Source: Sulfurimonas sp. (GTDB lineage: Bacteria > Campylobacterota > Campylobacteria > Campylobacterales > Sulfurimonadaceae). Taken from it: a stretch of 32,155 nucleotides of DNA. Each line of letters opens with the position of its first letter. Position 1 is the first letter of the stretch. Shown here in pieces: positions 20,306 to 24,168 of the stretch. The position numbers and the translations under genes are program-made. A model generated the notes under the pieces. The model was not told where the DNA came from. It saw nothing but the letters and a program-made list of their open reading frames with translations, and did not search any database. The stretch spans positions 1 through 32,155 of the forward strand of contig JADGEZ010000024.1 in the NCBI GenBank assembly GCA_016744115.1, in the 5' to 3' direction.

Positions 20306-20386
20306 ATGTGCATCCCTCATGGAGCTTTAGTAAGTATAAGTAATGGCTTTATTAAAAAAGAGAAGTATGCTTTTAAAACCTCGTAG
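20306..20386 (+). pseudogene. 26-residue frame, possible split N-terminus of the subunit-3-like gene
   Basis: This frame starts MCIPHGALVSISNGF behind the best ribosome site of the locus (AAGGAG, spacing five) but stops after 26 codons. It shares DNA with the start of the next frame. Removing one A from the A6 run at 20352-20357 would join it in frame to the downstream protein, so it may be the original start, now frameshifted. Alternatively it is a leader peptide. Confidence 0.35.
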
Positions 20387-20858
20387 AGTGTTTTTTAAGA
20401 CTGCATTCTTAACTACTCTCATTATTATTAGCTCAAAAAATAAACTTTTTGCTTCTCTTACCCCACTCCAAACTTTGGCTATTGTTCAAGAAGATTTATT
20501 TCCTCAAAAGATGATTAGTAACTCCAATGCACTTTCGTATATCAGCATAATTTTTAAACATTCTCGCATCAGTGCAGACAATAAACAGTTTTTACGCAAT
20601 GGCACAAAATGGTTAAATGAAGAAGCAGTATCTCAGTACGATAAACTCTATACAAAGCTAGACTCCAAACAAAGGCAAACTATACTCAAAATCATTTCAA
20701 AAGAATCATGGGGAAAAAGCTGGATAAAAACAGTTCTTAGCTACATAATGGAAGCAGTTTTAGGCGACCCAATATATGGCATAAATAAAAATGAATTTGG
20801 CTGGAGATGGTTAAACCATGAGAGTGGATTACCTCGACCCAAAGAGGCTACATTGTGA
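20343..20858 (+). CDS. Gluconate 2-dehydrogenase subunit 3-like protein
   Basis: A 171-residue protein of the Gluconate_2-dh3 type, the small exported subunit that accompanies a membrane-associated GMC flavoprotein. A twin-arginine-like signal (KPRRVFFKTAFLTT, about 12-25) precedes a hydrophobic stretch. The C-terminus has the family pattern LGDPIYGINKNEFGWRWLNHESGLPRP. The 20343 start lacks a good ribosome site; 20367 or a frameshifted start at 20306 are alternatives. The stop overlaps the GTG of the GMC fragment by four bases, a typical coupled pair. With the catalytic subunit truncated, this subunit probably has no partner here. Confidence 0.7.
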   Translation: MALLKKRSMLLKPRRVFFKTAFLTTLIIISSKNKLFASLTPLQTLAIVQEDLFPQKMISNSNALSYISIIFKHSRISADNKQFLRNGTKWLNEEAVSQYDKLYTKLDSKQRQTILKIISKESWGKSWIKTVLSYIMEAVLGDPIYGINKNEFGWRWLNHESGLPRPKEATL

Positions 20859-21034
20859 AAAATGATTATGATATTTGCATCATCGGAAGTGGTGCTGGTG
20901 GTTCACCCATAGCCTATGAACTTAGCAATGCTGGGTATAATGTAGCAGTCTTAGAAAAGGGAAAAAACTACACAGAAAAATTTTTTTCACTTATATCCTT
21001 TAAATTTGTGTCTTGTATTTTACACTATTTATGA
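20855..21034 (+). pseudogene. Truncated GMC-family oxidoreductase, N-terminal FAD-binding end only
   Basis: GTG start coupled to the preceding stop (GTGA), with aaagagg upstream. The frame encodes 59 residues. Residues 1-43 are clearly the start of a GMC flavoprotein: DYDICIIGSGAGGSPIAYEL, then VAVLEKGKNYTEKFF, including the FAD-binding GxGxxG and the acidic residue after the second strand. After that the sequence becomes unrelated and stops. Family members are about 500-700 residues, so more than 90 percent is missing. No remnant of the C-terminal part is visible in the next 160 bases, which suggests a deletion rather than a point lesion. Confidence 0.8.
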
Positions 21035-21078
21035 TAAATATACTTAGTTTTATACTATGGAATAATTTAATAGATGAA

Positions 21079-21115
21079 AATTAGGTTTAGTACCATGCCT
21101 GAACTAAACCTAATT
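21079..21115. terminator. Perfect 13-bp hairpin, probable bidirectional terminator
   Basis: Arms aattaggtttagt (21079-21091) and actaaacctaatt (21103-21115) pair perfectly around an 11-base loop. On the minus strand TTTTC is read through at the end of the stem, as expected for a terminator of the flavodoxin transcript 82 bases upstream. It would also stop transcripts from the truncated GMC locus. Confidence 0.65.
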
Positions 21116-21197
21116 ATTATTTAATCTTAAGAAATAGGAATCAACTCTTACTTATTTTTTTACCATTTTGCTCCTCTTTATGAATTTAGTTAGTTTA

Positions 21198-21707
21198 TTA
21201 TTTATTAAAATAAGGTGTGATTTGTTCTATCCACTTATCTATTCTTTCATTTGAAAGTTCACTTTGATTGTCTTCATCAAGTGCTAATCCAACAAACTCG
21301 CCATCATTTACTGCCATTGATTCATCAAAGTCATAACCATCCGTACTCCATGATCCTATGACATTTGCCCCATGTTGAACAATTTTTTTATAGATAATTC
21401 CCATAGCATCTAAGAAGTTATCGCAATAATCTTCTTGATCTCCTAATCCAAACATTGCAACAGTTTTTTGAGAAAAATTTACATTGTCTAAGTTATCTAT
21501 ATAATCTTCCCAATCATCTTGTAGTTCTCCCTCACCCCATGTTGAAGACCCAATAATAATTAAATCATAATTTTGCATAGCATTGTCTACTGTATCTGCG
21601 ATATTATGTAAATCAACCTCATTTTCAGTCATCTTGGCTTTTATTAATCTTGCTATATCTTCTGTATGTCCTGTAGAACTTGCATAAAACAAACCTATTT
21701 TTGGCAT
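21198..21707 (-). CDS. fldA: Flavodoxin
   Basis: An FMN electron carrier of 169 residues, the long-chain type, in the cytoplasm. The FMN phosphate loop YASSTGHTED is at 8-17. GSSTWGEGELQDDWEDY and GLGDQEDYCDNFLDAMG supply the two isoalloxazine loops. In Campylobacterota, flavodoxin accepts electrons from pyruvate and 2-oxoglutarate oxidoreductases and can replace ferredoxin when iron is scarce. A strong ribosome site (aaggag) precedes it. It overlaps the upstream unknown gene by 13 bases, and that transcript starts from a region with Fur-box-like dyads, so iron control is likely. Confidence 0.95.
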   Translation of the reverse strand: MPKIGLFYASSTGHTEDIARLIKAKMTENEVDLHNIADTVDNAMQNYDLIIIGSSTWGEGELQDDWEDYIDNLDNVNFSQKTVAMFGLGDQEDYCDNFLDAMGIIYKKIVQHGANVIGSWSTDGYDFDESMAVNDGEFVGLALDEDNQSELSNERIDKWIEQITPYFNK

Positions 21708-22489
21708 CTTTTCTCCTTCCTTTGTATATATGAAAATGAATATGGAACTATTTTTATTTTTTCCAAAGCTTGATTTCTTAGCGTAATATGTTTTTTGAAA
21801 TTATCAGTTTTAGGATATACTAAATAACATTCGTCTATATCATTCTTTTTTAATTGACGGAATCCATTCTCTATGTCACTATTTCTTTGTTTCAAATTTT
21901 GAGGATTTATATGTCTCCATTTTGGAAGCAATCTTGTAGTAATTCCATCTTGATTTATATGAATATAGGGTGATTCTAGGGTAACAGTTTTGTTTATTTC
22001 TTGCTTAATTCTTTTATAGATAGTTCGTGTAAATATCTCATTTAAATCAAGCATCATCTCTAGTTCTTTTCCATTAAAGATAAGTTGTATTAAGTCTATT
22101 ACAGGATGTGCATATCCGAGTAATATTTTAAACTCAGAATTAAAGTAAGTATTTTTACTCATATATTTCATCTTGAAACTTTTACTTTGTTTAAAATATT
22201 GTTGAAACAAAAGAGAATCTTGTTTATATATTTTTATCACTTTTTGAGGCTTCTCAGGTCTAAATTTATAAAATTGAAAAAATGACATTATTTTATCTTC
22301 AAAAATATACAATAAAGTGTTTTTAAATACATGATTATTGTTTAAATTTAACTGCGATTGTGCTGATAAATACTGATTTATCATCGTACAAAACATTCTT
22401 CGCTGGCATGTTATTTCATTAATTTTATATGTTTTAGGCAAAATTTCTTTTGTCTGATTTTTATATTTTGTAAAACCAATTTTACGCAT
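21695..22489 (-). CDS. Unknown protein coupled to flavodoxin, probably iron-regulated
   Basis: A 264-residue protein with no signal peptide and no clear membrane helix. I do not recognise the family. It is rich in Lys, Asn, Gln and Ile and basic overall. Features: CQRRMFC at 28-34 with two cysteines, a hydrophobic patch FKILLGYAHPVIDLIQLIF near 120-138, and a C-terminal IENGFRQLKKNDIDECYLVYPK at about 207-228, which reads like the most structured part. An AAAGGAAA ribosome site precedes the ATG. The overlap with fldA implies a shared transcript. A link to flavodoxin or iron-limited metabolism is inference from position only. Confidence 0.65.
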   Translation of the reverse strand: MRKIGFTKYKNQTKEILPKTYKINEITCQRRMFCTMINQYLSAQSQLNLNNNHVFKNTLLYIFEDKIMSFFQFYKFRPEKPQKVIKIYKQDSLLFQQYFKQSKSFKMKYMSKNTYFNSEFKILLGYAHPVIDLIQLIFNGKELEMMLDLNEIFTRTIYKRIKQEINKTVTLESPYIHINQDGITTRLLPKWRHINPQNLKQRNSDIENGFRQLKKNDIDECYLVYPKTDNFKKHITLRNQALEKIKIVPYSFSYIQRKEKRCQK

Positions 22490-22510
22490 ATTGTTTCCTT
22501 TTTTTGAAAA

Positions 22511-22542
22511 TATAGACTCATTATGTATGGTATGAGTCTATA
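22511..22542 (-). promoter_or_regulatory. Perfect 11-bp hairpin just upstream of the fldA-operon start
   Basis: Arms tatagactcat (22511-22521) and atgagtctata (22532-22542) pair perfectly around a 10-base loop, ending 22 bases before the ATG of the unknown gene. On the minus strand it is followed by TTTTC and an A-run. It could be an attenuator terminator, an RNA-stability hairpin or a dimeric protein site. Confidence 0.5.
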
Positions 22543-22614
22543 AATTATTAATCTTAGCGGTAATAGGAGAATATTATCTGCTGTCTTTGAGTTTTGTACT
22601 TACATACCAGTATA

Positions 22615-22668
22615 TTAATACTCTTCATTAGGTATATAAGGGAGATATAATACATTAAGTATCTTCAT
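22615..22668 (-). CDS. Possible 17-residue leader peptide 2
   Basis: Encodes MKILNVLYLPYIPNEEY within the 344-base leader of the fldA operon. The ribosome site (agag) is weak. Its stop comes about 70 bases before the hairpin. Kept only because it follows a better-supported mini-ORF in the same leader. Confidence 0.2.
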   Translation of the reverse strand: MKILNVLYLPYIPNEEY

Positions 22669-22676
22669 ATATATCT

Positions 22677-22703
22677 CTAATCTTGTTTAAGTCTTTCTTT
22701 CAT
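22677..22703 (-). CDS. Possible 8-residue leader peptide 1
   Basis: Encodes MKERLKQD with an excellent ribosome site (AAGGAGTGAA then ATG). It is the first start codon after the Fur-box-like sites. Too short for any homology argument; a regulatory upstream ORF or the remnant of a former gene start are both possible. Confidence 0.3.
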   Translation of the reverse strand: MKERLKQD

Positions 22704-22715
22704 TTCACTCCTTAT

Positions 22716-22730
22716 TGATAATCGTTATTA
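22716..22730 (-). promoter_or_regulatory. Fur-box-like dyad 1
   Basis: TGATAATCGTTATTA, an imperfect dyad close to the GATAAT-based Fur consensus. It lies just before the ribosome site of the first mini-ORF, where it would overlap the transcription start of a promoter with a TATTAT -10 box. Confidence 0.5.
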
Positions 22731-22767
22731 GAATAATACATTTAATTAGCTTAAAGTATTATTATAT

Positions 22768-22782
22768 TGATAATCAGTATCA
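22768..22782 (-). promoter_or_regulatory. Fur-box-like dyad 2
   Basis: TGATAATCAGTATCA, with perfect TGATA / TATCA half sites spaced by five bases, 37 bases upstream of the first dyad. Two such sites before a flavodoxin operon agree with iron-responsive control. Confidence 0.5.
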
Positions 22783-22833
22783 TATAATAAAGATACATCA
22801 AAGTATCATGTAAAAAATAATTGATTTTTTATA

Positions 22834-24168
22834 TTAAAAAGATAAAACTAAAAAAAAGATAAGTGCTATTACTCCACTGATGAGGGCATAAGGTAGTTGA
22901 GTTTTAACATGTTCTATAAGCTCGCACTCAGCTGCCATAGAGGAGATAATAGTAGTATCTGAGATAGGAGAGCAATGATCACCAAAAATTCCACCAGAGA
23001 TGACCGCTCCTATACAAAGAGCAACATTAGCATCCATCCCTATAGCCATAGGTACAGCTATTGGAATCATGATACTAAATGTACCCCAAGATGTTCCCGT
23101 AGAAAATGATATAAGAGAACTTAGTAAAAAAATCATACTTGCTAAAAATACTACATCTAAGTTTTCACTTGCTAAGGCTGCTAAATAATTTCCTGTTTCT
23201 AACTGTGTACTAATCTCCCCAATAGAAAAAGCAAAGATGAGTATCAAAGAAACATGAAATAATTTCTTTGCTCCTAAAAAAGATCCAATAGCAAACTCTT
23301 TTACACTCATCACCTTTGTAGGGATATAATAAACAAACATAAAAAGCAAGGTACTTAGCATCGTGTAGAAAATCGAACTAGAACCACTCCCTTTTAAAAT
23401 ATCTCCATCTCCTGTGATATAAAGAAAGACAAAAACTAAGACTAGCATCAAAAATATTGGTGATAGCATCAAATACATACTTTTTTGTTTTAGCTCTATA
23501 CTACTCTTTGAACTTTGCTTGTATAAAACACTTTTCATAGCACCAATATCAAATCCGTATAAAATATATAAAAATGTAACAAGCAAAGCACTCATAGCGT
23601 AAAAATTGTAAAAAATAGAATCTATCAAAATATTTATAGCCTTACCCTCTAAAGTGCCGTCTGTAATTTGTATAGTGATAAGACCAAGTAAAAGTACTCC
23701 ATAACCATTAAATATCACTAAAGAACCAATAGGTGCAGATGTAGAATCACAAACAAAAGCAAGTTTAGCTTGTGGAATATTATATTTTGCACAAAAAGGT
23801 TTCCCTACCGCTCCAGCGATTAATGCTGTTATAGAGGTTTCTATAAAAACAAAAACACCAATCATATAACTTAACATCAAGGCTGAACGCTGGGATTTAA
23901 CAAATTTTTTTTCATAAAGTGCGTAGTTTATAAAACCACCTACACCTCCACTTTTTTCAATCAAAGAAATAATAGAACCGACTAAAATTACAAAACCTAA
24001 GGTTTTAAGTATCCAAGGAGTTGTTAAGAGGTTTGCAAAGAGTTCATAGGTAGCTTCGAGTGATGCAAAGAATGAAAACCCATTTAAAATAAAAACACCT
24101 AAAAGCGTTCCTGAAAAAAGTGATAAAAGTACATTTTTTGTGTAAAGGGCAAAGAATATTGCCAACAA
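22834..24168 (-). CDS. Na+/H+ antiporter, NhaC family
   Basis: A polytopic inner-membrane protein of 444 residues or slightly more, with about 11 hydrophobic helices. It carries the NhaC-type segments FIETSITALIAGAVGKPF, CDSTSAPIGSLVIFNGYG and, near the C-terminus, STGTSWGTFSIMIPIAVPMA and GGIFGDHCSPISDTTI. It would exchange sodium for protons; an amino-acid/H+ antiporter role is possible for this family. The coordinates use the first conventional codon (TTG at 24168), but family-like sequence (EPSFLTLLPSL) continues upstream to an ATA at 24201 preceded by AAGG at the ideal distance, so translation may begin there. The gene follows the GNAT gene closely. Confidence 0.88.
   Translation of the reverse strand: MLAIFFALYTKNVLLSLFSGTLLGVFILNGFSFFASLEATYELFANLLTTPWILKTLGFVILVGSIISLIEKSGGVGGFINYALYEKKFVKSQRSALMLSYMIGVFVFIETSITALIAGAVGKPFCAKYNIPQAKLAFVCDSTSAPIGSLVIFNGYGVLLLGLITIQITDGTLEGKAINILIDSIFYNFYAMSALLVTFLYILYGFDIGAMKSVLYKQSSKSSIELKQKSMYLMLSPIFLMLVLVFVFLYITGDGDILKGSGSSSIFYTMLSTLLFMFVYYIPTKVMSVKEFAIGSFLGAKKLFHVSLILIFAFSIGEISTQLETGNYLAALASENLDVVFLASMIFLLSSLISFSTGTSWGTFSIMIPIAVPMAIGMDANVALCIGAVISGGIFGDHCSPISDTTIISSMAAECELIEHVKTQLPYALISGVIALIFFLVLSF

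Follow-up and report, generated by a model that had tools for sequence, protein, structure and literature searches.

A probable McrC-derived pseudo-nuclease of the Campylobacterota Fur regulon, encoded beside flavodoxin

The position of an uncharacterised gene directly ahead of a flavodoxin gene in a Sulfurimonas genome raises the question of what its product is and what it might do when iron is scarce. The window, that is, the whole stretch of 32,155 nucleotides analysed here, had already been read from its sequence alone, and that reading described a basic protein of no recognised family, overlapping fldA by 13 bases, preceded by Fur-box-like sites and possibly devoted to iron limitation. 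The description of the gene itself has held up well. The start codon of fldA lies inside the end of the 264-residue open reading frame (ORF), giving a 13-nt overlap at 21695-21707, two Fur-box-like sites are found upstream (Table 1) and the product has a pI of 9.8. Three congeneric genomes carry homologues with 59-68% identity, and together with a phylum-wide family of relatives these indicate that the ORF is a real gene. FAM is used here as a working name for this family, whose basic character is widespread (median pI 9.5, above 8 in 87 of the 91 distinct members, lowest 5.9).

Table 1. Features of the FAM-fldA locus, in window coordinates.
Feature	Position	Strand	Basis or remark
FAM coding sequence, very probably a McrC-derived pseudo-nuclease, 264 aa, ATG start	21695..22489	-	ORF, homologues, AlphaFold model
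fldA, long-chain flavodoxin	21198..21707	-	TIGR01752, 224.7 bits (cut-off 146.75)
N-terminal IGF...KEILPK segment, aa 4-19	22433..22480	-	By eye, resembles McrC VGxIQ...EILPK
C-terminal PD-(D/E)xK-like domain, about aa 140-258	21716..22072	-	Model, VIA, hhalign
Degenerate active-site stretch PYIHINQDGITTRLLPKW, aa 174-191	21917..21970	-	Alignment with McrC
Fur-box-like site TGATAATCAGTATCA, 1 mismatch to TGATAATNATTATCA	22768..22782	.	Motif scan
Fur-box-like site TGATAATCGTTATTA, 2 mismatches	22716..22730	.	Motif scan
TATAAT, possible -10 element between both Fur-box-like sites	22761..22766	-	Read in the sequence; putative

The view that the protein belongs to no family survives only for curated models. 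The window protein matches no Pfam family at E <= 1 and no NCBIfam model at cut-off, and no Pfam or NCBIfam cut-off is reached by any of the 30 members of the family alignment; the Pfam McrC model (PF10117) is detected in two of these 30 (best E 0.012), its gathering score being attained neither by them nor by the window protein. Sensitive profile and structure comparison, on the other hand, leads from this phylum-wide, uncharacterised family to McrC, which is the endonuclease subunit of McrBC. An AlphaFold2 model of the window protein was obtained from 30 aligned members (pLDDT 86, pTM 0.82). Foldseek returned no match for it at E 0.001 or better and listed E. coli McrC at the top (E 1.6e-3, probability 0.99). 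When Foldseek's own list was re-aligned with VIA-align 2, Thermococcus McrC came first (6ut7_G, Z 14.4, rmsd 3.5, 240 aligned, residues 1-259), followed by E. coli McrC (Z 10.7, 9.6 and 9.5). The best row other than McrC reached Z 8.8 with 83 residues aligned, and many of the remaining rows carry the names of restriction or repair nucleases, whose alignments cover FAM residues ~148-255. The model of a second member, of Arcobacteraceae type by similarity (L095), again placed 6ut7_G first (Z 14.0, rmsd 3.8, 235 aligned), although the two models are not fully independent because most alignment rows are common to both. At the level of the overall fold, the models appear to contain the scaffold part, the finger part and the PD-(D/E)xK domain of McrC.

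Profile comparisons point in the same direction. Twenty-four of the Campylobacterota McrC proteins found by PF10117 were used, of which 13 were aligned, and hhalign matched FAM to these 13 over the nuclease domain (probability 92.8, E 4.1e-7) and the 91 FAM members to all 24 (probability 81, E 1.3e-6); 14 control families drawn from the FAM loci reached at most 0.2. The LLFDMNLLF, DTKWK and YLIYPK segments match in the FAM/McrC alignments, and the N-terminal segment of Table 1 was left unaligned by hhalign. Single comparisons are weaker. The FAM profile brought one of the 24 McrC proteins over the inclusion threshold (E 1.9e-5), and in ten McrC-bearing genomes it matched the McrC place in three (E 3.2e-7, 0.08 and 0.09), recovered one true FAM member (G115) and gave nothing at E <= 1 in six. 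In the opposite direction, the McrC profile matches single FAM members weakly (best E 4.4e-5 among 91). FAM thus shares with McrC (PF10117; PDB 6ut7, 6ut6, 6hz4, 7vsr) the fold over nearly the whole chain and a profile-level similarity of the nuclease domain, but it is shorter, with 264 aa where the McrC proteins compared here have about 405-485 aa, has lost the catalytic D, D, K, does not need McrB and has an iron box upstream and fldA alongside. It is very probable that FAM is a McrC-derived pseudo-nuclease under Fur. A literature search that mostly excluded subscription journals retrieved no paper linking FAM to McrC.

The loss of catalysis can be followed residue by residue. The catalytic residues of Thermococcus McrC have been reported as D340, D354 and K356 (PMC7680126), and in the Campylobacterota McrC proteins compared here they lie in PD and DTK. 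The FAM stretch PYIHINQDGITTRLLPKW aligns without gaps and at equal length with PDIVINKDEQQLIADTKW of one such McrC (L138), an alignment in which the first D is replaced by Y175 and the second by L188, and only the lysine is kept, as K190. The loop between the catalytic motifs varies in length in other McrC proteins, and the first catalytic position is less certain since hhalign agrees on the register of the second motif but puts the first D near Q180. In none of the 91 members are acidic residues (D/E) found near both 175 and 188 alongside a K near 190. The near-invariant positions of the C-terminal domain are instead aromatic, proline or basic (F153, Y222, P226, K/R227, F231, K/R246, P249 and Y250), and no recognised binding motif was seen among the near-invariant FAM positions. 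Versions reduced to the C-terminal part (147-148 aa) occur in genus g20 (L009, L010, L061, L085) and at L083 and L101, an indication that FAM has its core in this domain. The profile match extends upstream across stop codons in several genomes of g20, which looks like decay of the N-terminal part, and at the other extreme stands a member with a long N-terminal extension (L054:3995-5230, minus strand, 411 aa, start codon uncertain).

Regarding regulation, the two Fur-box-like sites noticed earlier lie 226 and 278 nt ahead of the FAM start codon; a simple sigma-70 scan gave no promoter on the minus strand at either. The whole window holds 14 Fur-box matches with up to three mismatches against 8.2 expected, a number reached by 4 of 100 shuffles, so that only the better sites carry weight. 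Across the 2.05-Mb genome six places have at most one mismatch, the FAM operon among them. Others of the six precede feoB and a rubrerythrin/desulfoferrodoxin-like gene, and two (L161, L163), which adjoin copies of a repeated gene, are perhaps not targets of Fur. At these two places the same ORF start (MRVINANYAKYF...) is found on two contigs, each time beside an identical Fur-box-like TGATAATGATTATCC, and the repeated element is probably mobile. The Fur boxes are conserved across the phylum. Of 89 distinct FAM upstream regions, drawn from related species and hence non-independent, 72 carry a Fur box with at most two mismatches against 1.15 expected from dinucleotide shuffles, 44 one with at most one mismatch against 0.05 expected, and three a perfect site; eight have nothing better than four mismatches. 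FAM has, as a member of the Fur regulon would, a Fur-box-like operator upstream that is kept in relatives. The leader ahead of the window gene seems unusually long, and an eight-codon ORF (MKERLKQD, 22677-22703, minus strand) with a good Shine-Dalgarno sequence lies just downstream of the second site. Elsewhere, genes for a Fur-family protein (PF01475) and a TonB receptor stand directly upstream of FAM on the same strand (L078:6355-8909, minus strand, G420), with genes resembling ExbD/ExbB by eye beyond them.

Expression has been recorded for an apparent counterpart in C. jejuni. In a 1.5-Mb genome (G229, L050), the order fldA - FAM - DUF2325 is followed by a divergent catalase gene and an ankyrin gene. 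A matching arrangement is described for C. jejuni, where Cj1382c is fldA with Cj1383c as its neighbour (PMC9612045), cj1384c carries DUF2325, katA is cj1385 and the ankyrin gene is cj1386 (PMC9426514). Cj1383c is tentatively assigned to the family on this shared gene order, Cj1384c-Cj1383c-fldA, as it occupies the same slot between fldA and a DUF2325 gene, with katA and the gene for the ankyrin protein close by; the likeness drawn on is that of gene order, and the window differs, since a DUF2325 gene was looked for in its genome and is absent. Both Cj1384c and Cj1383c have been described as iron- and Fur-repressed (PMC3815106, PMC4491227), with the pair rising in a fur mutant and cj1384c listed as having a Fur repression motif (PMC4491227). 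Cj1383c is counted among the genes reported to respond strongly to iron. In addition, it is reported to differ 179-fold between avian and mammalian mucus (PMC6338021), its protein is more than 16-fold up in co-culture (PMC6470190), and in the text available from three of these sources it is labelled hypothetical or uncharacterised (PMC6338021, PMC9612045, PMC6470190). The earlier suggestion of an iron-limitation protein tied to fldA is therefore strengthened by the conserved Fur boxes, by the presence of flavodoxin in all 147 family genomes and by the published repression of this counterpart, the expression itself being that of C. jejuni and not of the window organism.

The computation supports McrC homology, loss of the catalytic residues, existence without McrB, and conserved Fur boxes together with fldA linkage. 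On these grounds a complete explanation can be put forward that is, on balance, slightly favoured: a dead McrC-derived PD-(D/E)xK protein that belongs to the Campylobacterota Fur regulon and would bind nucleic acid during iron starvation. As iron becomes scarce, Fur would leave the promoter and, presumably in the window organism too, FAM would be produced along with flavodoxin, which replaces ferredoxin and contains no iron. The least certain step is the following one, in which FAM, as an iron-sparing or stress-response factor, might bind RNA or DNA through its basic pseudo-nuclease fold without cutting it. Small basic Fur-controlled proteins that act with a small RNA, such as FbpB of Bacillus, offer an analogy. 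Nucleic-acid binding is tentatively preferred as mechanism because FAM is basic, descends from proteins that handle nucleic acid and has a precedent in CoCoNuT-type McrC homologues, whose inactivated PD-(D/E)xK domain is thought to be retained for nucleic-acid binding (PMC11090510). Both keep a dead domain of this type, with the CoCoNuT binding role only proposed, but CoCoNuT-type McrC proteins work with McrB-like GTPases in defence operons, whereas no gene of that kind adjoins FAM in the loci read, and FAM is under iron control. In its widest form, the idea that a disarmed subunit of a restriction nuclease has become an RNA- or DNA-binding regulator, induced by iron starvation alongside flavodoxin and free of McrB over much of the phylum, is possible, though somewhat doubtful. 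If true, a defence enzyme would have been recruited into metal homeostasis. The identity as a disarmed McrC gives the family of the apparent counterpart Cj1383c a fold and near-invariant residues for mutation, and it sharpens the question of whether RNA, DNA or flavodoxin is the partner of FAM.

The main rival to nucleic-acid binding is that the dead fold serves as a protein platform that holds FldA or passes it to a client, with pyruvate or 2-oxoglutarate oxidoreductase and ribonucleotide reductase as candidates. In C. jejuni, FldA is described as the electron acceptor of POR and OOR, and work on ribonucleotide reductase is cited in the same source (PMC9426514). The co-occurrence of FAM with fldA, proposed earlier as a check, was followed over the phylum. 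A first similarity search had matched FAM in 13 of 149 related genomes, and the profile search found relatives in 147 of 397 Campylobacterota genomes; a further match, in G244 (E 5.7e-4), is probably its McrC gene, since a later family-profile match in that genome is McrC, which brings the count from 148 to 147. Long-chain flavodoxin (TIGR01752) is present in 315 of the 397 genomes and in all 147 with FAM, an association (Fisher p 6e-18, computed with 148 genomes) that is not taken as proof because relatedness among the genomes is ignored. Among the 91 distinct FAM genes gathered in loci (one of them a 64-aa fragment), flavodoxin directly adjoins 85, downstream in 83 and upstream in two, and in the two genomes with two FAM copies a flavodoxin adjoins each copy (L062; L031 and L066). 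A DUF2325 gene (PF10087) is adjacent upstream in 53 of the 91, nearby in seven and unseen in 31, some of these loci being short. In four Arcobacteraceae loci (L032, L038, L039, L041) three consecutive flavodoxin ORFs lie behind FAM.

Against a flavodoxin partner stand the 168 of 315 flavodoxin genomes that have no FAM member, from which it follows that FldA works without it. FAM is found in 94 of 119 flavodoxin genomes of f11, 29 of 33 of f9 and 14 of 20 of f20, but in only 4 of 33 of f1, the family of the window genome, and 2 of 92 of f14. Evolution of FAM is also much faster than that of FldA (median pairwise identity 31% against 51%). Six of the 91 genes are not adjacent to flavodoxin. Two of them concern a contig end and a fragment (L002, L090), and in L073 the flavodoxin is 1.4 kb away. 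The other three are located elsewhere: one lies behind feoB (L080, the same gene as L114), one precedes a gene resembling, by eye, the receptor gene of L079 (L089), and one is near multihaem cytochrome genes (L053). Fur-box-like sites are retained at L053 (1 mismatch, -119), L089 (2, -46) and L114 (1, -27), and this pattern in the sequence speaks against a strictly flavodoxin-bound role. A function as flavodoxin partner is consequently regarded as rather unlikely, its standing as the main rival notwithstanding.

Nucleic-acid binding also has to be weighed against a role within restriction itself, in which the dead McrC would bind the McrB GTPase where present and tune or block McrBC at low iron. 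McrC itself stimulates this GTPase and supports the cleavage of modified DNA. The ancestry of FAM is in line with this, and so is the co-occurrence with McrC: among 200 genomes searched, 92 have McrC, and at least 46 of them also have FAM (47 with G244), mainly of Campylobacter type. Phage infection of C. jejuni has moreover been reported to raise Fur-regulon genes together with mcrC (PMC6024767). However, the genome of the window has neither McrB nor McrC, so FAM can exist without them. In 30 hand-picked FAM genomes, McrB was found in seven, McrC in the same seven and neither in 23, a proportion that is not a frequency since the picks include none of the 92 McrC genomes. No McrB gene adjoins FAM in the loci read, and a McrB-linked regulator is accordingly held to be quite improbable.

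A slightly smaller chance still is given to FAM being a passenger or translational leader of fldA, retained mainly for coupling between its end and the fldA start. The 13-nt overlap in the window fits such a role, as does the way in which FAM disappears. A survey of 12 FAM-less flavodoxin genomes of the Campylobacter-type genus g24 (L143-L154), out of 25 such genomes in f11, found DUF2325 ahead of fldA on the same strand with no FAM ORF between them in 11; L144 has no DUF2325. By tblastn, a decayed FAM copy was recognised in L143 and a fragment in L147. Loss or decay in several Campylobacter-type genomes indicates that FAM is dispensable in some lineages. L157 (f9) shows the arrangement of the 11 loci, FAM and DUF2325 are both missing from L155 and L156 (g69), and the three FAM-less flavodoxin loci of Sulfurimonas (L140-L142) have different neighbours. 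Against a passenger role stand the conserved core over 91 distinct members, the confident structure model, the persistence of FAM away from fldA and the increase of Cj1383c protein in co-culture mentioned above.

Finally, an active nuclease with a rearranged active site, for defence or RNA decay, is very improbable: the PD-(D/E)xK-like fold and sub-threshold matches to the toxin-RNase model Ntox50, obtained with five of the 30 members (best E 0.0059), would favour it, but the set of two acidic residues and Lys is missing from all 91 members even with one position of slack, and the near-invariant positions of the C-terminal domain include no acidic residue.

Several further matches were set aside. 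Ntox50 was not adopted as family, given that both structure models lead to McrC. An NCBIfam RLI-ATPase match, seen in one of 30 members (E 0.0033, 16.2 bits where the cut-off is 469), and a match to complement C7 among PDB sequences (E 0.93) are attributed to chance. The same applies to a second match in the window's own genome (G000:C65:10363-10713, E 5.4e-5), which lies in a 136-aa ORF with neighbours of phage-like appearance, as judged by eye (L014), in view of these surroundings and of the single G000 match in the profile search. Rfam gave one match over 20800-22900, far under the gathering score. On the other side of fldA, the plus-strand region 20343-21031 contains an ORF of the gluconate 2-dehydrogenase subunit-3 type (PF13618, 20343-20858), and the ORF starting at 20855 begins like a FAD-binding oxidoreductase by eye (VKNDYDICIIGSGAGG...) and stops after 59 codons, as a broken oxidoreductase gene.
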